From Roseateles sp. (GTDB lineage: Bacteria; Pseudomonadota; Gammaproteobacteria; Burkholderiales; Burkholderiaceae_C), in assembly GCF_019237615.1 (NCBI RefSeq), contig NZ_JAFAGT010000085.1, forward strand, positions 186,001 through 250,000: 64,000 nt of DNA, read 5' to 3'. This document shows, piece after piece, positions 41,351 through 51,473 of this stretch. The stretch's first letter is position 1, and every line of letters starts with the position of its first letter. The notes beneath the pieces were generated by a model. The model did no database searches. It worked only from the letters and a program-made list of their open reading frames with translations, and was not told the DNA's origin. The position numbers were made by a program, and so were the translations under genes.

Positions 41351-43420
41351 ATGATCACCTTGACAATCAACGGCACGCAGGTGGAGGTGGACGATGGCGC
41401 CACCCTGCTCCTGGCGGCACAAAAGGCCGGCATCCTCATACCCACCCTGTGCCACCACCCTCGCATGCCGCCGCTTGCGGTCTGCCGCATGTGCGTCGTC
41501 GAAGTCCAGGGAGTGGACCGCCTGCTGCCTGCCTGCGCCACGGCCGCGAAGGAAGGGGCGGTAGTCGAGACGGAGAGCCATGTCATTCGAGCCTTCCGGC
41601 AGGCCGACGCCGAATGGCTGCTCGCAAGGCATCCGAACAACTGCATGCGCTGCGAGGTGAACGGATCGTGCCGGCTGCAGTCCCTGGTTTTCGAGCACCA
41701 ATGGGCCGACCGCTGGTCCCACCTGCCGATCGCTTCGCCAACCACTGGAGAGCACGTCAAGATGGACCACACCTCTGCGAGCATCTGGCGCGAGCTGTCG
41801 AAATGCATCGAGTGCGGCCTGTGCGCGCAGGCATGCGGCGATGCGAGGCAGCAGCAACATGTAATTGGATTCGCCGGGCGCGCCAGCGAGCGCTTACCCG
41901 TGACGGTTTTCGACCAGCCTCTGGCGGCTACGCGCTGCATCTCATGTGGACAGTGCACCCTGGTATGCCCGGTGGGTGCCCTGGTCGAAGCGCCCGCTTG
42001 GCACGAGGTGCTCAAGGTGCTGGACTCCCGAAAGCGGCTGTCCGCCGTCATGGTCGCGCCCGCGACGCGGGTCGCCATCAGCGAGGAGTTCGGCCTCAAG
42101 CCCGGCACCGTCAGCACGGGAAGGCTGATCAACGCGCTGCGGCACCTGGGCTTCAATCATGTGTTCGACGCCAATTTTGGAGCCGACATGACGATCATGG
42201 AGGAAAGCGCGGAACTGCTGGGACGCATCGCGGACCGCCGCAGGCTGCCGCTGTTCACCTCCTGCTGCCCAGCCTGGGTGAACTGGATCGAGATCAACCG
42301 GCCGGACCTGCTGGCGCATCTCAGCGAGACCCGCTCGCCGCAACAAGTCCTTGGCGCATTGACGAAGCGCGGTCCCTTTGCGCGCAAGCTTGCAGGAAAC
42401 TTCGCCGACGCCAGGGCCGAACCATTCGTCGTCAGCGTGATGCCCTGCACGGCCAAAAAGGACGAGGCGCTACGGCCCGGCCTGTGCGACGACGTCGACC
42501 ATGTCCTGACGACTCGCGAACTGGCAAGGATGATCCGATCGCGCGGCATCGCATTTGGCGCGCTCAACGATGACGGATGTTTCGACGATCCCTTGGGCGA
42601 AAGTACCGGCGCGGGGCAGATCTTCGGCGCCTCTGGCGGAGTCATGGAAGCGCTTGTGCGCACAGCCTCCTTCGTTGTCCGCGGAGACAGTGCACTCCCA
42701 CTGGAGTGGCATCGGCTCCGGGGTGTCGATGAGGGCATCAAGACGGCAGACATTCCTGGGATCGGACGAGTCGCCGTCTGCAATGGCATCGCCGTCGCCC
42801 AGCGCCTGCTGCAGTCCGACGACTGGCGCGCCGAATACGTCGCCATCGAGGTGATGGCTTGTACGGGCGGTTGCCTGGGCGGCGGTGGCGAGCCCAAGTC
42901 GCTGGACCCGTGCATCCTGCAGACGCGCGCCCAAGCGATCTACGGCATCGACAGCCGCGCCCCCCGGCGTCGCTCGCACGAGAACCTGTCCGTGCAGGCT
43001 CTCTATTCCGAAGAGCTCGGGGAGGCCAACTCGTCCACGGCCAAGGCAATGTTGCACACGAGCTATGCCGCGCGCGGCTCCAAGCGTTCGCTGCTGATGC
43101 GCTTCCTCGACGCCGTCGACCGGCGGGATGAAGCAGCCGCCGCGAGGCTGTTCCATCCTGATGGCGTGTGGATCACGAGCTCGTCGCTCGGCAATGCCCA
43201 TGGCGCTGCGGATGTGCAGCGGTTGATCAAACACCTTCCGCCCCGCAGGCTGGGGCCGGAATACCTGCGCCACCGCATGGAGGTCGCGGCATCAGCCGAC
43301 GATCTCACCGTCGTGACGCCCGAGGGGGCACGATGCCGTTTCGAGCTCGAACTGGGGACGGCTTGCGTCGACGGTACGCCCACGGCATTGATCGGGCGAC
43401 TGGTCCGGCACGTCCTGTAA
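41351..43420 (+). CDS. [FeFe]-hydrogenase with C-terminal NTF2-like domain
   Basis: 689 residues. Order: 2Fe-2S ferredoxin domain (1-75), His-Cys3 4Fe-4S site (HPNNCMRCEVNGSC, about 94-108), two 4Fe-4S clusters (CIECGLC at 152, CISCGQC at 196) and the H-cluster domain. All three catalytic motifs are intact: TSCCPAW (about 304), MPCTAKKDEA (about 364), EVMACTGGCLGGGGEP (about 500), with SPQQ and EES support. The enzyme should interconvert H2 and protons with ferredoxin-type electron input. From about 575 an extra SnoaL/NTF2-like domain (FLDAVDRRDEAAAARLFHPDG) follows, which I do not know from characterised hydrogenases. No signal peptide and no HydEFG genes in the window. GAGGGG precedes the ATG. 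Confidence 0.93.
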   Translation: MITLTINGTQVEVDDGATLLLAAQKAGILIPTLCHHPRMPPLAVCRMCVVEVQGVDRLLPACATAAKEGAVVETESHVIRAFRQADAEWLLARHPNNCMRCEVNGSCRLQSLVFEHQWADRWSHLPIASPTTGEHVKMDHTSASIWRELSKCIECGLCAQACGDARQQQHVIGFAGRASERLPVTVFDQPLAATRCISCGQCTLVCPVGALVEAPAWHEVLKVLDSRKRLSAVMVAPATRVAISEEFGLKPGTVSTGRLINALRHLGFNHVFDANFGADMTIMEESAELLGRIADRRRLPLFTSCCPAWVNWIEINRPDLLAHLSETRSPQQVLGALTKRGPFARKLAGNFADARAEPFVVSVMPCTAKKDEALRPGLCDDVDHVLTTRELARMIRSRGIAFGALNDDGCFDDPLGESTGAGQIFGASGGVMEALVRTASFVVRGDSALPLEWHRLRGVDEGIKTADIPGIGRVAVCNGIAVAQRLLQSDDWRAEYVAIEVMACTGGCLGGGGEPKSLDPCILQTRAQAIYGIDSRAPRRRSHENLSVQALYSEELGEANSSTAKAMLHTSYAARGSKRSLLMRFLDAVDRRDEAAAARLFHPDGVWITSSSLGNAHGAADVQRLIKHLPPRRLGPEYLRHRMEVAASADDLTVVTPEGARCRFELELGTACVDGTPTALIGRLVRHVL

Positions 43421-44290
43421 AGCCGGCCATCCGCGACGCCGGTCCCGTGCGGGTCCGCCTGGAGACCCTGAGCCTGGCGCCAGATTTGGCGCAGTGCGTC
43501 TGCAAGCATTCCCGGCACGTCGGCACTCCAGCGACAACAAGTGCGACCACCGCCTCACAGCTTGGCTGCGGGCGTACGAGTTGGCGTTGAGCCAAGCCGG
43601 GACCGATCCGACGATGAATATGCCGCATTGAGCTTCGTCAGCAGCACTCGCCGGTCTCACGCATGAGGTGGCTGCGCCCGGCCGCAGAAGACGCACGCTG
43701 CCTTGACGTTTGACGGATTGACGTGAGATCCGGCAGGAACCTGACGTGAAGATGCATACACCCGGCCACGGAAGAGGTGCTTAGCCATGCGATCGAGCAG
43801 ATCTTGACCCCAAGCGTCGTCGAGGAGAACACTACAGCATCATGAGCCGTGAGGATCCCGGTCGCCTTTCTCCCGCAACGGCCACGCCAAGCACGTGGCC
43901 GAATCCCATGCACAAGCGATTGCGCCAGATCATGCGCATCGAAGACGCCAGACTCCCGCGACGTTCCGTTTGGCTACCCATAACCTGCCCTCCCTGACCC
44001 ACCGGTGGAATGTCGCTATCCGGTCCGCTGCCGACACGGTGTACGCAATGATCCCGCTGCGGCCGTGGATCCGCGAATGAAGCAGGCCAGGTGGCCTGAC
44101 GGCAGCAAGTCTTGCAATGTGGGCGGCGACAACGCCATCGGATCGGGTCTGTGAGGGCGGCTGTTTCCAGCCATGACCATCAACGTAGGCGCCGAACTGC
44201 TCCGCATCAGGAACTATCCGATTCTGCCGCGCGGACTCTAGGGCCCACGCACAGCTTCGAGGACACCCTCGGCGACCTCCGTCGCCATTC
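43421..44290. other. 870-bp spacer without a convincing gene
   Basis: Only short, compositionally poor frames are present on both strands. A piece near 43752-43844 reads ATEEVLSHAIEQILTPSVV without a start codon and may be a gene scrap. Three direct TTGACG hexamers occur at 43703-43723 with 7- and 8-bp periods. TTGCGCCAGATCAT (43920-43933) is one base short of the FNR-like sites found elsewhere in the island. Confidence 0.5.
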
Positions 44291-44304
44291 TTGATGCAGA
44301 TCAA
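44291..44304 (+). promoter_or_regulatory. FNR/Anr box of the cytochrome-porin operon
   Basis: TTGATGCAGATCAA, a perfect FNR consensus. Its centre predicts a class II start of transcription near 44339, and GAGAAT (44326-44331) stands at the -10 position. The leader would be 22 nt with GGGAG before the ATG at 44361. Confidence 0.85.
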
Positions 44305-44360
44305 ATCGCTGCACGCCCAGGTCGAGAGAATGATTCAGGAGCACCCGACGGGAGTTCGCG

Positions 44361-45854
44361 ATGGACCATCCGACCGAGTTGACCGATATCCCCGGCGGCA
44401 GGCGCCGCATGATCCGGCCGCGGGGCGCCTGGATCATGGCTCTAACGCTCGCCTTGCTTGCGCTGGCCGCCGGGCCGGCGCGGGCGGTCCCGCTGTTCAA
44501 CCGCCAGACCGGCCAGAACTGCGTGGCCTGTCATGCGGGCGGCCAGTTCCCCGAGTTGACACCCTATGGCCGCCTGTTCAAGCTGACTGGCTACACGCTG
44601 GGCCAGCGCACGGCGGTGCCGCTGTCGGCGATGGCGGTGGTATCCGCGGCGACTGTGGCCAACACCAGCAAGAGCCTGAGCCCGGGATCGGACTTCCAGA
44701 AGGACAGGGACTTGATCCTCGCCACGGCCAGCCTGTTCGTCGGCGGCAAGATCACCGACAACGTCGGCGCCTTCGTGCAGATCACCTACGACCCCTACGC
44801 GGTGAGCAACGCCGACGGCTCCTTCTCGGGCCACACGAATGCCGACAACATGGACATCCGCTGGGCCGACCGCTTCATCAGCGGGGAGCGCGACCTCATC
44901 GTCGGCCTAAGCCTCAACAACAACCCCTCGGTGTCAGACCCGTGGAATACGGCGCCGGCCTGGATGCAGTACGTACCGGTGCCAAGCCCCACCAGCTACC
45001 AGTTCATCGACGGCACGACGCCCTATCCAGGCTATGCCTCAGGCGGCAACATCGCCGGGCTGACCGCCTACGGCTTCCTGAACCGCACGTGGTACGGTGA
45101 GGTGGGAGCCTACGGCACGGCGCGGGGGCCGCTGTCCTTCGTGACGCGAGGCGTAGCGCCGCGCACCACGCTGCGCGGGCTCAACCCCTACTGGCGCCTG
45201 GCCTGGAACCATGAATGGGGGGCACACAGCCTGATGCTGGGAACGGGCGGCATGCTGGCGCGCATCTACCAAGACCCAGGCGACCCCACGACGATAGACC
45301 GCTATCGTGACTGGAACCTGGATGCGCAATACCAGTACCTGCTGGACCCACACGCACTGACGGCCCAACTCGTGTATGCCGGCAGGCGGCACAGCTATCC
45401 GGCCGCGCAGAGCGGTCAGCCGGTCGGATTCGTAGACCCGGCCGGCAATGCGCTGGCCAACACCAACGCCGCGGACAGCACCCGCTTGCTGCGCGCCAAG
45501 CTCAGCTACGTCTACCAGGCGCGTTACGGTGGCAGCTTCAGCCTGTTCAGCCTGACGGGCACGACCAACACGGCCAACCAGAGTTCGGGCTTTGATCCCG
45601 CGACGCTGACCATCACTGCCACCGACCCCAACGCGACGCAGCTCTCCTTGCCTGTGAACGGCAACCTGTCCGGCAACCCCGGCACTCGCGGCTGGACGCT
45701 GGAGGCCTTCTGGATGCCAGTGCAGTACATCCGCATCGGCGCCCAGTACACGGGCTACTCCCGCTACAACGGCGCCGCCAGCAACTACGACGGCTTCGGC
45801 CGCAATGCCAAGGACAACAACTCGCTGTTCCTCTACATGTGGGTGGCGTACTGA
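44361..45854 (+). CDS. Cyc2-like outer membrane cytochrome-porin fusion
   Basis: 497 residues. A signal peptide (hydrophobic ALTLALLALAAG, cleavage after ARA near residue 42) is followed at once by one c-type haem site, CVACH (about 53-57), in NRQTGQNCVACHAG, then QFPELTPYGRLFKLTGYTLG. This matches the start of Cyc2-type proteins, in which a short monohaem cytochrome plugs a porin. The remaining 400 residues look like an outer-membrane barrel, with alternating strands and a closing LFLYMWVAY. Cyc2 proteins oxidise extracellular Fe(II) in iron oxidisers; the direction of electron flow here is unknown. It is followed 17 bp later by a diheme cytochrome gene and preceded by a perfect FNR box. Confidence 0.8.
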   Translation: MDHPTELTDIPGGRRRMIRPRGAWIMALTLALLALAAGPARAVPLFNRQTGQNCVACHAGGQFPELTPYGRLFKLTGYTLGQRTAVPLSAMAVVSAATVANTSKSLSPGSDFQKDRDLILATASLFVGGKITDNVGAFVQITYDPYAVSNADGSFSGHTNADNMDIRWADRFISGERDLIVGLSLNNNPSVSDPWNTAPAWMQYVPVPSPTSYQFIDGTTPYPGYASGGNIAGLTAYGFLNRTWYGEVGAYGTARGPLSFVTRGVAPRTTLRGLNPYWRLAWNHEWGAHSLMLGTGGMLARIYQDPGDPTTIDRYRDWNLDAQYQYLLDPHALTAQLVYAGRRHSYPAAQSGQPVGFVDPAGNALANTNAADSTRLLRAKLSYVYQARYGGSFSLFSLTGTTNTANQSSGFDPATLTITATDPNATQLSLPVNGNLSGNPGTRGWTLEAFWMPVQYIRIGAQYTGYSRYNGAASNYDGFGRNAKDNNSLFLYMWVAY

Positions 45855-45871
45855 AGCCGCGGGAGAAGACC

Positions 45872-46543
45872 ATGACATGCACCAGACTCACGATTTCGCG
45901 GGCGTCCTGGGCCGTGCTTGCGCTGGTGGCCGGCTGCGCCAACCCCGAACGCTCGCGCGATGTCGCCAATCCGGCCGTGTCCGGCGCCGTGCTCGCTCAG
46001 CAGGTGTGCTCGATGTGCCACGGCCTCGGCGGCACGGCGGTGTCGCCGAATTTCCCGAACCTGGCCGCGCAGACGGATGTCTATCTGGTCAGCCAGCTCA
46101 AGAATTTCCGCGCGCGCCAACGCCGAGACCCGGCCGGCTTCGAGTACATGTGGGGCCTGAGCCATGCGCTGACGGATGCGCAGATCGACGGTTTGGCGGC
46201 CTATTTCTCTCGGTCCACGCCGCAGCGCCAGCGTGTGGAAGGCAAGGCCGAGCGCATCGCCGCCGGCCAGCACATCTTCGAGCAGGGCCTTCCGGCCAAA
46301 AACATCCCGGCCTGCGCCGGCTGTCATGGCGACAAGGGCCAGGGCAACGGCATGTTCCCGCGCCTGGCCGGCCAGCACGGCGACTACCTGGTCAAGCAAC
46401 TGACCGTGTTCCAGCGAACCGACGAGCGCTCGGATGCGCAGACCATCCCGACTGGAGCGGTGATGAAGACCGTGGCGCATCAACTCGGTCGCGAGGACAT
46501 TGCCAACGTCGCCGCCTACGCCCAAGCCATGCCGAACCGCTGA
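45872..46543 (+). CDS. Diheme cytochrome c lipoprotein (cytochrome c4-like)
   Basis: 223 residues. The signal ends in a lipobox (LALVAGC, acylated Cys about residue 21), so it is anchored to a membrane in the periplasm. Two c-type domains follow: CSMCHG (about 46-51) and CAGCHG (about 148-153), each with the c4/class I context (PNLAAQTDVYLVSQLKNF; PRLAGQHGDYLVKQLTVF). A Met ligand is likely in each half. With the cytochrome-porin upstream it forms a two-gene electron path between the outer membrane and the periplasm. GGGAG precedes the ATG at 45872. Confidence 0.9.
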   Translation: MTCTRLTISRASWAVLALVAGCANPERSRDVANPAVSGAVLAQQVCSMCHGLGGTAVSPNFPNLAAQTDVYLVSQLKNFRARQRRDPAGFEYMWGLSHALTDAQIDGLAAYFSRSTPQRQRVEGKAERIAAGQHIFEQGLPAKNIPACAGCHGDKGQGNGMFPRLAGQHGDYLVKQLTVFQRTDERSDAQTIPTGAVMKTVAHQLGREDIANVAAYAQAMPNR

Positions 46544-46765
46544 GCTCCGGCGTCACGCTTGCACACCCTGGAGTCACGCGGCAACCTGCCAGTTCCTGAT
46601 GTCGAGCAGCTCGGCGCATGCGTTGACGCGGGATGTCTCGAAGCCCCCGCCCCCAGGACCTCAATCAGGTGATGCCGCTGCCAGCAGTGCCGCATGTCCA
46701 GTTCGCGCAGGATCGGGCGGAGATTGCGCGACGACTTGGTGTTTAGGGTGCCGCTGCAGGCAACC

Positions 46766-46779
46766 TTGCGTTTGATCAA
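46766..46779 (+). promoter_or_regulatory. FNR/Anr-like box upstream of the TraR/DksA gene
   Basis: TTGCG-TTTG-ATCAA: one consensus and one variant half-site. Predicted class II start near 46814, 17 bases before the ATG at 46831, with TAGCGT at the -10 position (46802-46807). The preceding 220 bp hold no convincing gene. Confidence 0.65.
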
Positions 46780-46830
46780 CCAGCGCGATCCCCGATGCCC
46801 TTAGCGTTGCCACGGAGGACACGAAGTTCC

Positions 46831-47250
46831 ATGCATACGCCATCAAGAAGCACCCGAACGACAATCCCCGCCACGCCTTGCAGCTCGGCGGCGCGAGAAG
46901 CGCTTGACCTGGACAGGGCTCGGGCCGTGCTGGTCGCGCGTCGGGATGACCTGCGCCAGCGGCTCGAGCGCCCCTTGACTGACGCCAACTTCGAGCGCGA
47001 GGTGACCGATCAGAAGGACGAGGCCGAGCATAACGAGGCGACGCAGATCGAGGAGACGCAGCGGGCCCTCGAACTCGCGGAGCTCGTGGAGGTGGAGGCC
47101 GCACTGGAGCGCTTGGCCGGCGGCTCGTATGGCAACTGCGTTGACTGCGGCGAGGCGATCCCGCTGGCCCGGCTCGGCGCCAATCCCGCGGCGACCCGTT
47201 GCGCGGCCTGCCAGTCGGCGCAAGAGGTCCGCCAGCGGCTCGGTATCTGA
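46831..47250 (+). CDS. TraR/DksA family zinc-finger protein
   Basis: 139 residues. Coiled coil (about 30-90) with the DxxDxA tip (DQKDEA) that DksA inserts into the RNA polymerase secondary channel, and a C-terminal zinc finger CVDC-x17-CAAC. It may modulate transcription with or without ppGpp. GGAGG precedes the ATG at 46831; an upstream ATG at 46795 lies before the predicted start of transcription and is unlikely. It is followed by the DUF2892 and RNase genes. Confidence 0.92.
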   Translation: MHTPSRSTRTTIPATPCSSAAREALDLDRARAVLVARRDDLRQRLERPLTDANFEREVTDQKDEAEHNEATQIEETQRALELAELVEVEAALERLAGGSYGNCVDCGEAIPLARLGANPAATRCAACQSAQEVRQRLGI

Positions 47251-47381: not shown

Positions 47382-47564
47382 ATGGTCATGGCGATGAACG
47401 TCGGCGCAATCGACCGGGTGCTGCGGGTTCTCATCGGTATCGCATTGGTAGGCGCCGCAGCGCTGGGATTCATCAGCCCCATCGGGTATGTCGGGCTCAT
47501 ACCTCTGGCGACGGGCGTTGCCGGGTATTGCCCCATCTACCGCATCTTCGGACGGCGCTCGTGA
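47382..47564 (+). CDS. DUF2892 small membrane protein
   Basis: 60 residues with two membrane helices: NVGAIDRVLRVLIGIALVGAA, then IGYVGLIPLATGVAGYCPIY, the standard DUF2892 pattern with the GxCPxY-type end. Members often sit beside rhodanese or stress genes; function unknown. ATGs at 47382, 47388 and 47394 are all possible; GGAG motifs support either of the first two. Its stop overlaps the GTG of the RNase gene. Confidence 0.85.
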   Translation: MVMAMNVGAIDRVLRVLIGIALVGAAALGFISPIGYVGLIPLATGVAGYCPIYRIFGRRS

Positions 47565-48955
47565 GTGCCTTGAACGGACTGCGGTTGCAGTTCCTCGGCG
47601 CGACCGGCACGGTGACGGGATCCCGCTACCTCGTCGAGTTCCGTGGGCGTCGCCTGCTCGTCGACTGCGGGCTGTTCCAGGGCCTGAAGCAGCTGCGCCT
47701 GCGCAACTGGGCGCCGCCGCCGGTGCCCGCAGTGTCCATCGATGCCGTGCTCCTCACGCATGCCCACATCGATCACAGCGGCTACCTGCCCCGGCTGACT
47801 GCCGAGGGTTTCCGCGGACCGATCTACGCCTCGCCCGGCACGGCGGAGCTGCTGGCCATCCTGCTGCCGGACTCCGGCCGCCTGCAGGAGGAGGATGCAC
47901 GCTACGCGAACCGCCACGGCTTCAGCAAGCATTCGCCGGCACTGCCCCTCTACACAGAGGCCCAGGCACTGCAAAGCCTGGCGCAGGTCAGGCCCCGGGA
48001 GTTCGGCAAGGCCTTCGAGCCCGTGCCGGGTCTGCTGGTCAGCTTCAGCCACGCCGGACACATCGTCGGCGCAGCGTCGGTGCATCTCGCGACGGACGCC
48101 GGATCCATCACCTTCTCGGGCGACCTCGGCCGCACGGACGATCCCGTCATGCTGCCGCCAGCCGCTGCGCCGGACGGCGACGTGATCGTCATCGAGTCCA
48201 CTTACGGTGACCGCCTGCACCCCGCTGCGCCCAGCGCCGACCAGCTCTGCGACGTCGTCTCGCGCACGGCAGCACGCGGTGGCACCACACTGATCCCGGC
48301 ATTTGCCGTGGGACGTGCGCAGGCCATCCTGCACGCCCTCCTGCGACTCAAGGCGGAGGGAAGGATCCCTGACCTGCCTCTCTACCTCAACAGCCCCATG
48401 GCCTCCCAGGCCACACGGCTGGTGCATTCGCACATCGACGAGCACCGGCTGACGGACGCGGACCGGTGGGATCTCGCGGAGAAGGTGCGCTACGTGCGCA
48501 CGGAGACCGAGTCTCGCGCGCTGAACCGTCCAGGCTATCCCAGCGTCATCGTCGCCGCCAGTGGCATGGCCACCGGGGGCCGCGTCCTGCACCACCTGGA
48601 AGCGCTGGCGCCCGATGCGCGCAACACCATCCTCTTCGTAGGCCACCAGGCCACGGGCACGCGCGGCGCGACCCTGCTCGGAGGTGCCGACCGCGTCCGC
48701 ATCCACGGCCAGTGGGTGCAGGTGAGGGCCGCGGTCGCCGCCATCGAGGGCATGTCGTCCCATGCCGACCGCGCCCAGTTGCTCGGCTGGCTGGCCACGC
48801 TCCACCGTGCGCCACGCCATGTTTACGTCACGCACGGCGAACCGCAGGCTGCCGATTCGTTGCGGCAGGCGATCGAGGAGCGCTTCGGCTGGCCAGCGTC
48901 CGTACCCGAGTACCTCGACACCGTCATTCCCGAGGAGTTGCCGTGTCGACCTTGA
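47561..48955 (+). CDS. Metallo-beta-lactamase/beta-CASP RNase (CPSF73-like)
   Basis: 464 residues. An MBL domain with HxHxDH (THAHIDHSGYLP, about 66-72), then SHAGHIVGAASV and SGDLGR, a beta-CASP insert with IPAFAVGRAQ, and the closing AASGMATGGRVLHHL and MSSHADRAQLLGWL. Bacterial members are RNA endo/exonucleases related to CPSF73; in low-oxygen regulons they accompany universal stress genes. GTG start overlaps the DUF2892 stop as GTGA (47561-47564). Confidence 0.92.
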   Translation: MSALNGLRLQFLGATGTVTGSRYLVEFRGRRLLVDCGLFQGLKQLRLRNWAPPPVPAVSIDAVLLTHAHIDHSGYLPRLTAEGFRGPIYASPGTAELLAILLPDSGRLQEEDARYANRHGFSKHSPALPLYTEAQALQSLAQVRPREFGKAFEPVPGLLVSFSHAGHIVGAASVHLATDAGSITFSGDLGRTDDPVMLPPAAAPDGDVIVIESTYGDRLHPAAPSADQLCDVVSRTAARGGTTLIPAFAVGRAQAILHALLRLKAEGRIPDLPLYLNSPMASQATRLVHSHIDEHRLTDADRWDLAEKVRYVRTETESRALNRPGYPSVIVAASGMATGGRVLHHLEALAPDARNTILFVGHQATGTRGATLLGGADRVRIHGQWVQVRAAVAAIEGMSSHADRAQLLGWLATLHRAPRHVYVTHGEPQAADSLRQAIEERFGWPASVPEYLDTVIPEELPCRP

Positions 48956-50128: not shown

Positions 50129-50142
50129 TTGACGGCCATCAA
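50129..50142 (+). promoter_or_regulatory. FNR/Anr box before the HtrA-like chimera gene
   Basis: TTGAC-GGCC-ATCAA. The predicted class II start (50177) is one base before the ATG at 50178, implying a leaderless message. The -10 position (TGCGGT) is weak. Confidence 0.7.
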
Positions 50143-50177
50143 CGGAAGTTCGGCCACGAAGCAGTGCGGTGACCTGC

Positions 50178-51473
50178 ATGACGACACCCCCTCGCTGCGC
50201 CCTGCTCTTCGCCAGCGTCCTGACCGCGCTGACGTCTGCAACCGACGCGGCGGCACCCGCGGTCCGAGCGCCTGTCAAGCCCCGGCCATCCCGCCTCGCT
50301 ACGGGCTTCCAGCGCGGCGCGCCCTGGCATGTCGGCATCTTCATGTCCGGCGAGGAAGAACCCCGCATCGGGTCGGGCTTCTTCCTGGACGACAAGGGTG
50401 CCATCGCGGCCGTTGCCCATCTGATGGGCGAGGTCCGGCAGATCCTGGTCGCGCTGCCAGACAAGCGGGTGGTCGCTGCCGACTTGGAGGGCGTGGACGA
50501 GAACACTGACATCGCGCTTTTGCGCATCGCCACGCCCTCGCGGGCCCGGCCAAGCATCGCCAAGCCCGGCAGCACCCGGGCCGGCGACCGGGTGATGGCC
50601 GTCGGCCAGCCTTTCGGACTCGAGCACTCCGTGGCGGTCGGCGTCGTCAGTGGCAAGGACAGGCACTTCAGCGACGAGGCAGAGCTGATGTTCATCCAGA
50701 GCGCCGTCGCCCTGAATCCAGGCAACGCCGGCGGCCCCCTGCTCGATGCCGCGGGCGCGACCATCGGCATGAATGCGCGCGCCATCGTCGGCCCGGTCGG
50801 TACGCCAGGCGCGAGCCTGGCCATCCCGATCGACATCCTGCTGCAGGTGATCAGCGAGCTGCGCCGCGACAACCACACGCCGCCCCGCCCGCGCCTGGGC
50901 ATGCAGTTCGACGACATCACGCCGCTGATGGCCCGGTCCAGTGGCCGGCAGGACATCAGTGGCGCCGTCACCCTGCCTGTACCCCACGGCAGCCTGGGCG
51001 AGCAACTGCCGCTGCACGCCGGCGACATCGTGGGCTGGCCCATGCTGCGGCGCGGGATGGCTCAGGGAAGGCTGTTGCTGACGGCCGTGCTGGGCATCTA
51101 CGCCGCGGCGCTGCAGGCTGGCCGCGAAGCCGACGTGGCACGCGCGCTGGCGATGATCGGCCTCACGACTGGCAACCTGTTCCTCGTTGCCGCCAACATG
51201 ACCGCCGGCGACGGGCTGCGGGCGCAGTCGGCTCCAGGCGCGCGCCCTTTCTGGGGTGTCAGTTGGGCCGCGACCGCGGCGCCGGCCGCCGCAGTCCTCG
51301 TGCCGGCCGCCAGGGGCCTGCTGCACTTCGGCGCCCCAGCGAGCGATGAGGTCGCCTGCACCTTGGGAGTTGTCGCCCCGTCGGTCGTCCTGGGCGCCGC
51401 GGCAGGCCGGCGGATGAGCGGCGCACGGCATTCGGCGGCCGGTGGCGTCGAGCCATGGGGGAAAGGCACATGA
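50178..51473 (+). CDS. Chimeric protein: inactive HtrA-like protease fused to P-type ATPase C-terminus
   Basis: 431 residues. After a signal peptide (about 1-25) comes a trypsin-like HtrA domain with His81 (VAHLM) and Asp111 (NTDIALL) but Ala184 in GNAGGPL where GNSGGPL carries the nucleophile, so it should not cleave peptides. A PDZ domain begins (PRLGMQFDD) and stops at GDIV near residue 285. The rest (LRRGMAQGRLLLTAVLGIYA..., GNLFLVAAN..., PAARGLLHFG) resembles the last membrane helices of a cation P-type ATPase. The chimera looks like a deletion that joined two neighbouring genes in frame. It overlaps the deacetylase gene by ATGA. Confidence 0.75.
   Translation: MTTPPRCALLFASVLTALTSATDAAAPAVRAPVKPRPSRLATGFQRGAPWHVGIFMSGEEEPRIGSGFFLDDKGAIAAVAHLMGEVRQILVALPDKRVVAADLEGVDENTDIALLRIATPSRARPSIAKPGSTRAGDRVMAVGQPFGLEHSVAVGVVSGKDRHFSDEAELMFIQSAVALNPGNAGGPLLDAAGATIGMNARAIVGPVGTPGASLAIPIDILLQVISELRRDNHTPPRPRLGMQFDDITPLMARSSGRQDISGAVTLPVPHGSLGEQLPLHAGDIVGWPMLRRGMAQGRLLLTAVLGIYAAALQAGREADVARALAMIGLTTGNLFLVAANMTAGDGLRAQSAPGARPFWGVSWAATAAPAAAVLVPAARGLLHFGAPASDEVACTLGVVAPSVVLGAAAGRRMSGARHSAAGGVEPWGKGT

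Follow-up and report, generated by a model that had tools for sequence, protein, structure and literature searches.

A Cyc2-type cytochrome-porin and a c4-type cytochrome gene behind a recurrent FNR box in Roseateles

What Cyc2 homologues do outside the known iron oxidisers is a stated question of the field (PMC8406198; PMC10734462, which describes a cluster 2 homologue without supporting context). A locus in Roseateles sp. raises this question: within a 64,000-nucleotide stretch of assembly GCF_019237615.1 (contig NZ_JAFAGT010000085.1, positions 186,001 to 250,000; “the window” hereafter, meaning the whole stretch analysed), a perfect FNR box stands ahead of a gene for a Cyc2-type fused monohaem cytochrome-porin, followed on the same strand by a gene for a diheme c4-type cytochrome. 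We confirm that the first protein is a Cyc2-type cytochrome-porin, and find support for an FNR box that has class II spacing here and recurs ahead of many related genes. The cytochrome-porin and its pairing with c4 are known, the recurrent FNR control appears to be new: no report of FNR control of Cyc2-type genes was found in the literature searched, a search that left most subscription papers outside.

Is the protein of the Cyc2 type? Cyc2 is described as a monohaem cytochrome fused to a porin of 16 predicted strands, recognised by a signal peptide, a single CXXCH near the N-terminus, at least 365 residues and a 16-strand barrel, with the consensus AXPXFAR[Q/K][T/Y] before the haem and PXL after it (PMC8406198). 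The window gene (44361..45854, + strand) encodes 497 amino acids, and its translation begins with a hydrophobic N-terminus that ends in AAGPARA and is followed by VPLFNRQTGQNCVACHAGGQFPELTPYGRLFKLTGYT; judged by eye, roughly residues 1-42 resemble a signal peptide. The protein holds exactly one CxxCH (haem motif C54-C57-H58) and two cysteines in all, and reads AVPLFNRQT before the haem and PEL after it, which agrees with six of the seven fixed consensus positions (N in place of A). An AlphaFold2 model built from a 63-row alignment (the window and 62 of 80 loci, these being the best 80 of 557 matches) places 16 strands across residues 88-495 (pLDDT 84.1, pTM 0.81), so that the N-terminal motif, the length, the single haem and the strand number all fit the published Cyc2. 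The window protein had no family match in Pfam or NCBIfam, none of the 63 aligned family members matched Pfam, and a profile search of the PDB gave a single match at chance level (E 0.83), while the ten best Foldseek matches in the PDB were porins (OmpF, DcaP; E 1.5e-6 to 9.8e-6). Taken together, the haem motif and the modelled barrel ruled out both a soluble cytochrome and an ordinary porin. The original prediction of a Cyc2-like cytochrome-porin is thus borne out by the single CxxCH, the signal-peptide-like N-terminus and the modelled barrel.

Homologues (E up to 0.001) occurred in 12 of 60 near-relative genomes, its own included; across the window's order 92 of 399 genomes had one, and 9 plasmid records did too. 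Sulfuricella sp. T08 and Thiobacillus thioparus are among the hosts. The locus set comprised 80 hand-chosen stretches from homologue searches, one being the window, five plasmid loci and the best 80 of 557 matches from a further search. The haem motif holds across homologues as the original prediction expected, CxxCH being present in the chosen open-reading frame of 84 of 85 homologous loci (L091, without it, was dropped), a count that excluded the 80 loci kept of 557 matches, whose search used two patterns, one of them containing the haem motif. Removal of identical proteins took 164 rows to 154. In a larger FastTree tree, with L094 and L082 outside it, the window type forms one side of a branch with a support value of 97, and in a tree of 42 hand-picked rows the cluster-1-like proteins split from all others, window protein included, at 100. 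Counts below refer to 103 window-type loci, 30 other relatives and 20 cluster-1-like loci, the last being hand-picked weak matches from 19 genomes, labelled from motif and tree and with one long-branch misfit (L124) among them. For five cluster-1-like proteins the alignment with the window protein is confined to a single N-terminal-side stretch of 116-136 columns, with chance-level pieces beyond, whereas the Cyc2 of a rus-pet locus (L244, genome G695), which groups with the window protein in the 42-row split, aligns over the full length (506 columns, 30.6%, E 6e-53); by alignment and tree the window protein would belong to cluster 2. One distant plasmid copy (L019, Acidiphilium cryptum plasmid pACRY03) is followed by a c-type cytochrome, and its neighbours seem to serve functions that need no oxygen: two genes of the U32 peptidase family, one of them annotated for ubiquinone synthesis, an SCP2 protein and a ribonucleoside triphosphate reductase.

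The second gene encodes a diheme c4-type (Cyc1-like) cytochrome, a putative periplasmic partner (45872..46543, + strand), and starts 17 bases after the stop codon of the cytochrome-porin. Its product has the two CXXCH domains and c4-like sequence of c4/Cyc1 proteins, a lipobox-like LVAGC, and matches to Pfam Cytochrom_C and Cytochrome_CBB3; its closest PDB structure is 1h1o (E 1.3e-30), which we take to be the A. ferrooxidans c4 cytochrome (Cyc1), and it is also close to the c4 entries 6q2u, 8smr and 8snh, some of them presumably from a cbb3 supercomplex. The diheme lipoprotein partner proposed from the first look is therefore supported. The pair itself is conserved: no more than 600 bases downstream, 96 of 103 window-type loci have a c4-type gene on the same strand (68 of the 96 genes with a lipobox-like motif under a lenient pattern), as do 16 of 30 other relatives and 2 of 20 cluster-1-like loci. 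Such a gene behind the cytochrome-porin is the cyc2-cyc1 order of the rus operons in iron oxidisers (PMC10654088), and the contrast that the original prediction drew with the Fe(II)-oxidising setting is not supported. Reading of translations also placed a YceI-like gene after the pair in 23 loci (e.g. L161, L165, L179) and a HiPIP-like gene near it in five (L170 and L177 included), downstream in four.

What would switch the pair on? The box TTGATGCAGATCAA (44291..44304) is a perfect palindromic TTGAT-N4-ATCAA whose centre lies 63 bases before the start codon, and it is the only perfect TTGATNNNNATCAA within the window; with one mismatch allowed the pattern matches three times in the window against 0.18 expected, and the 4.8-Mb genome (108 contigs) holds four perfect sites and none of the reversed control pattern. 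In class II FNR promoters the -10 element lies about 28-29 bases from the box centre. Here a -10-like hexamer, GAGAAT (44326..44331, + strand; four of six matches to TATAAT), starts 28 bases from the box centre, which gives the class II arrangement and would place the transcription start at about 44338-44339; an ordinary sigma-70 match was absent from 43400-46900. Other boxes were seen in the same genome. From the end of a one-mismatch box, TTGACGGCCATCAA (50129-50142), it is 26 bases to the listed start of a DegP-like protein (feature 50129-51473). This protein is an unusual fusion, its C-terminus also matching a cation-ATPase C-terminal domain. The same distance of 26 bases separates a perfect box from the listed start of a DegP-like paralogue elsewhere (L129), and a further one of the four perfect boxes (L131, contig C74) precedes by 120 bases what reads as a fatty acid desaturase gene.

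The box is not peculiar to the window. Of the 103 window-type loci, 36 (the window among them; 18 perfect) carry a box with at most one mismatch within 250 bases upstream, where dinucleotide shuffles give an expectation of 1.07 (perfect 0.03) and a maximum in 100 shuffles of 5 (perfect 1); of the 30 other relatives, 7 do (5 perfect) against 0.28; one locus with a short upstream region (L160) stands outside these counts. None of the 20 cluster-1-like loci has a box, with 0.41 expected, so the zero is uninformative alone and only its contrast with the other groups informs. The relaxed form TTGA-N6-TCAA behaves likewise (39/103 against 0.71 expected, 7/30 against 0.18 and 0/20 against 0.15), and in far-upstream control windows it appears in 3/370, 0/107 and 1/80 for window-type, other and cluster-1-like loci; a control palindrome gave none. 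A hexamer with at least four of six matches to TATAAT starts 28 or 29 bases from the box centre in 20 of the 43 boxed loci, all distinct and the window among them; the other 48 offsets together give 59 counts, and the best non-touching offset pair gives 7. Chance boxes are ruled out by the 36 loci against 1.07 and by the relaxed-form controls, with the proviso that relatives are not independent and the shuffle figures overstate certainty. What the original prediction took for a perfect FNR box is accordingly one, with class II spacing here and recurrence in many relatives. Boxed copies occur in named isolates (Roseateles saccharophilus, Undibacterium jejuense, Rugamonas apoptosis). It is highly improbable that the box is fortuitous and the cytochrome-porin a silent remnant: the gene is patchy, 19 other genomes of the genus giving one close copy (G003) and only distant ones in three (G010, G012, G018), but the open-reading frame is full, with 85% identity to the R. 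saccharophilus copy, and the recurrence and -10 spacing figures argue against it.

Which protein would read the box? The genome encodes an oxygen-sensing FNR (L132) with CX2CX5C and a central Cys. It scores 233.9 bits, above the NCBIfam cutoff of 228 (NF008365), and its gene shares contig C80 with ccoN. A different member of the Crp/Fnr family, such as a Dnr- or FixK-like regulator, could instead read the box and answer to NO or to another signal than oxygen; there are four PF00325 matches in the genome, one of which (L134) resembles FNR but is without the N-terminal cysteine set, and some relatives carry TTGAC-N4-GTCAA forms. We judge this quite unlikely, as the TTGAT-N4-ATCAA form, the class II spacing and the cysteine-bearing FNR fit FNR best, and as no Nar or Nap model matched any of the five PF00384 proteins at the thresholds used, which would leave a nitrogen-oxide signal with less purpose. 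Of those five, two exceed formate dehydrogenase or FdhF/YdeP cutoffs, one is NuoG-like as its start reads, and the remaining two exceed no cutoff, their best matches including formate dehydrogenase.

We lean, with modest confidence, towards a two-gene operon forming an FNR-switched, low-oxygen electron-uptake module that feeds cbb3 and is accessory or protective in a heterotroph. The oxygen-sensing FNR would turn on transcription from the class II promoter as oxygen falls; the single haem by the barrel, once loaded, would draw electrons from a donor dissolved outside the cell, with Fe(II) or some other reduced metal or organic complex the likeliest, and hand them to the anchored c4, which would deliver them to the high-affinity cbb3 oxidase. 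In a probably heterotrophic Roseateles this may serve as an accessory energy source or a protective route at the oxic-anoxic edge, and would not be part of an autotrophic iron-oxidising lifestyle. A cbb3 oxidase was detected in the genome, whose four COX1-family proteins comprise a CtaD over its cutoff, another slightly below it, a CyoB and a CcoN. In a check of 40 chosen genomes, ccoN lay within 22 kb of the cytochrome-porin in 3 of 14 box-carrying genomes (G403, G058, G361) and in none of 26 others, a figure of little weight, the cut being post hoc and others lying at 26 kb (G387), 28 kb (G363) and 44 kb (G280). Low oxygen is also familiar ground for Cyc2, against the contrast drawn in the original prediction: neutrophilic iron oxidisers are microaerophilic (PMC4643136), so falling oxygen is a condition where Fe(II) persists, and FNR regulation therefore fits iron oxidation and does not set the locus apart from it. 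Sulfuriferula strains with a cluster 2 cyc2 and cyc1 grew on Fe(II) (PMC12285272), which would favour inward flow if these stand near the Sulfuricella copies found here.

Several observations weigh against such an uptake module. The window protein misses the strict Cyc2 motif by one residue; many relatives lack the strict PxFAR[QK][TY] too, which is present in 78 of the 103 window-type proteins, 20 of the 30 others and 12 of the 20 cluster-1-like ones, and FNRQT is common to 16 of the 103. The haem region (residues 41-70) is modelled at low confidence, in blocks of 52-66 pLDDT, and the porin matches reach TM-scores of only 0.36-0.38 by query length at rmsd of about 9-11 A, hence the likeness is to a barrel in general. 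In the rus-pet locus L244 the c4 gene lies about 15 kb from cyc2 and does not adjoin it. The box is absent (two or more mismatches) from 67 of 103 window-type loci, the Ideonella relative has no site (4 mismatches), and the box state needs 23 changes on the tree; FNR control thus recurs but is not general, and is not one inherited copy, the FNR link having been gained or lost repeatedly. The box counts take any upstream box, possible ownership by a divergent gene aside, and close relatives are over-represented in the set: the best 80 of 557 matches supplied 79 of the 103 window-type loci, of which 31 are boxed, whereas 5 of the 22 loci from other genome searches are. Neither RuBisCO nor rusticyanin was detected in the window's own genome, so this is not a canonical iron oxidiser.

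The direction of flow brings in the main rival. Under anoxia electrons might pass outward, from quinol through bc1, c4 and the cytochrome-porin, to an acceptor outside the cell such as Fe(III). A pathway to an anaerobic acceptor would suit FNR control, and the c4 weakly resembles the periplasmic diheme shuttle PdsA, at 41.2 bits where the cutoff is 330. For A. ferrooxidans there are reports that anaerobic cells respiring Fe(III) induce both Cyc2 and rusticyanin, and a second pair, Cyc2B and Cyc1B, was found in cultures adapted to anaerobic growth (PMC8790237, citing Kucera and Norris). This precedent comes, however, from an acidophile, and a cbb3 oxidase is present here. In the acidophile setting Fe(III) is a strong acceptor, whereas Fe(III) minerals at neutral pH have too low a potential to accept electrons from bc1- and c4-level carriers. 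A Cytochrom_NNT protein (CymA/NapC/NirT) was not detected in the window's own genome; among 30 chosen genomes, with box-carrying G186 and G063 left out of this check and of the ccoN one, such proteins occurred in 2 of 14 box-carrying genomes (its own among the 14; one hit a fragment) and 6 of 16 box-free ones, and the 12 box-carrying genomes without one speak for uptake. Given neutral pH and no CymA-type protein, outward flow looks less likely here, and we rate it as unlikely overall.

The module may also draw on a different donor, with reduced sulfur species, humics and Mn(II) as examples, or the route may protect instead of yielding energy. Hosts such as Sulfuricella and Thiobacillus point that way, as do the recurring YceI-like and HiPIP-like genes; Cyc2 may have additional functions (PMC8406198), and the stress-type genes that surround the window operon would suit protection. 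No specific alternative donor is indicated, however, and the YceI-like and HiPIP-like genes were not seen adjoining the window operon, which leaves this explanation doubtful next to uptake from Fe(II) or a similar reduced complex.

If electron uptake is correct, the wider meaning lies in the hosts. Many hosts of the Burkholderiales branch are not known as iron oxidisers, and the FNR box ahead of many related genes suggests that heterotrophs may turn on an extracellular electron conduit at low oxygen. The recurrent FNR switch shows when the gene is wanted and so names the relevant growth condition. We put forward tentatively, as a possibility that falls somewhat short of our expectation for the window operon itself, that a Burkholderiales Cyc2-type branch has repeatedly been drawn into the FNR regulon, forming a widespread oxygen-switched electron-uptake accessory that feeds cbb3 in heterotrophs. 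If true, microaerobic oxidation of Fe(II) or of other extracellular electron donors would be a facultative trait of common soil and freshwater bacteria, and Cyc2-type genes in metagenomes would also point to facultative low-oxygen iron use by heterotrophs, beside dedicated iron oxidisers.

Does the neighbourhood share a function with the pair? Upstream on the same strand lies a gene for a group A-type [FeFe] hydrogenase with a SnoaL-like C-terminal match (41351-43420, + strand). HydF gave 12 matches in the genome with none over cutoff (1 of 14 control genomes had one over it), so the hydrogenase may be an orphan without a maturation system. Across 38500-63000 the third-position GC of called open-reading frames is lower (about 0.69-0.89, against mostly 0.87-0.96 before), and this region, which may be an imported low-oxygen or stress island, holds Usp-type genes (one by Pfam, three by reading), a chromate transporter and, by reading, FtsH, an acyl-CoA synthetase and a flavodoxin-like gene. 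A Beta-CASP MBL nuclease at 47528-48955 has type VII Cas14 as its best NCBIfam match (349.8 bits, well under the cutoff of 800). A function common to the window neighbours was ruled out, since these genes rarely recur (tblastn, E 1e-12, 154 loci): the hydrogenase, DksA-like and DUF2892-like genes were found in the window alone, the MBL and Usp genes in one other locus each, and the chromate transporter and DegP-like genes in two each, with the absences arising partly from locus ends, as the loci span a median of only about 7 kb each side. The acyl-CoA synthetase of 59540 recurs in four loci, all box-carrying (L067, L093, L170, L177), which lends weak support to low-oxygen neighbourhoods.

How does the locus compare with known systems? 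Cyc2 of the rus operons, of the Acidithiobacillus type, is likewise a fused monohaem cytochrome-porin, and the L244 protein, from such an operon, is the one that aligns with the window protein in full. The A. ferrooxidans Cyc2 was reportedly placed in cluster 2 by McAllister et al. 2020. L244 runs cyc2, cupredoxin-like, coxB, coxA, coxC-like, ctaA, ctaB, rusticyanin, two sco-type genes, bc1 genes and c4 (rusticyanin from the search, the other names from reading of translations), and of seven stretches around rusticyanin matches (three in G640, two of them cut by contig ends, two in G695, and one each in G789 and G584) L244 alone held a cytochrome-porin. The window shares with rus operons the c4-type gene directly downstream, as in cyc2-cyc1 (PMC10654088), but its cytochrome-porin has no cox genes or rusticyanin adjoining, an FNR-type promoter and a Roseateles host without detected RuBisCO; within the window's own family, a few Leptothrix-Sphaerotilus genomes are on record as having a cluster 2 cyc2 (PMC13386937). 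The neutrophilic cluster 1 Cyc2, such as Cyc2PV-1 with its 16 reported strands (PMC8406198), has the same N-terminal motif and single haem, whereas the cluster-1-like proteins here align with the window protein at the N-terminal side only, have no box and seldom have a c4-type gene downstream. Cyc2B-Cyc1B of A. ferrooxidans is a second cyc2-cyc1-type pair, seen in anaerobic growth (Norris et al. 2018, cited in PMC8790237). It is likened to the window pair by description only, and differs in its acidophile host and in Fe(III) reduction. MtrCAB, MtoAB and PioAB also join a porin and a cytochrome into a path across the outer membrane, with a decahaem cytochrome in a separate barrel; the window protein, in contrast, has one haem fused to the barrel itself.

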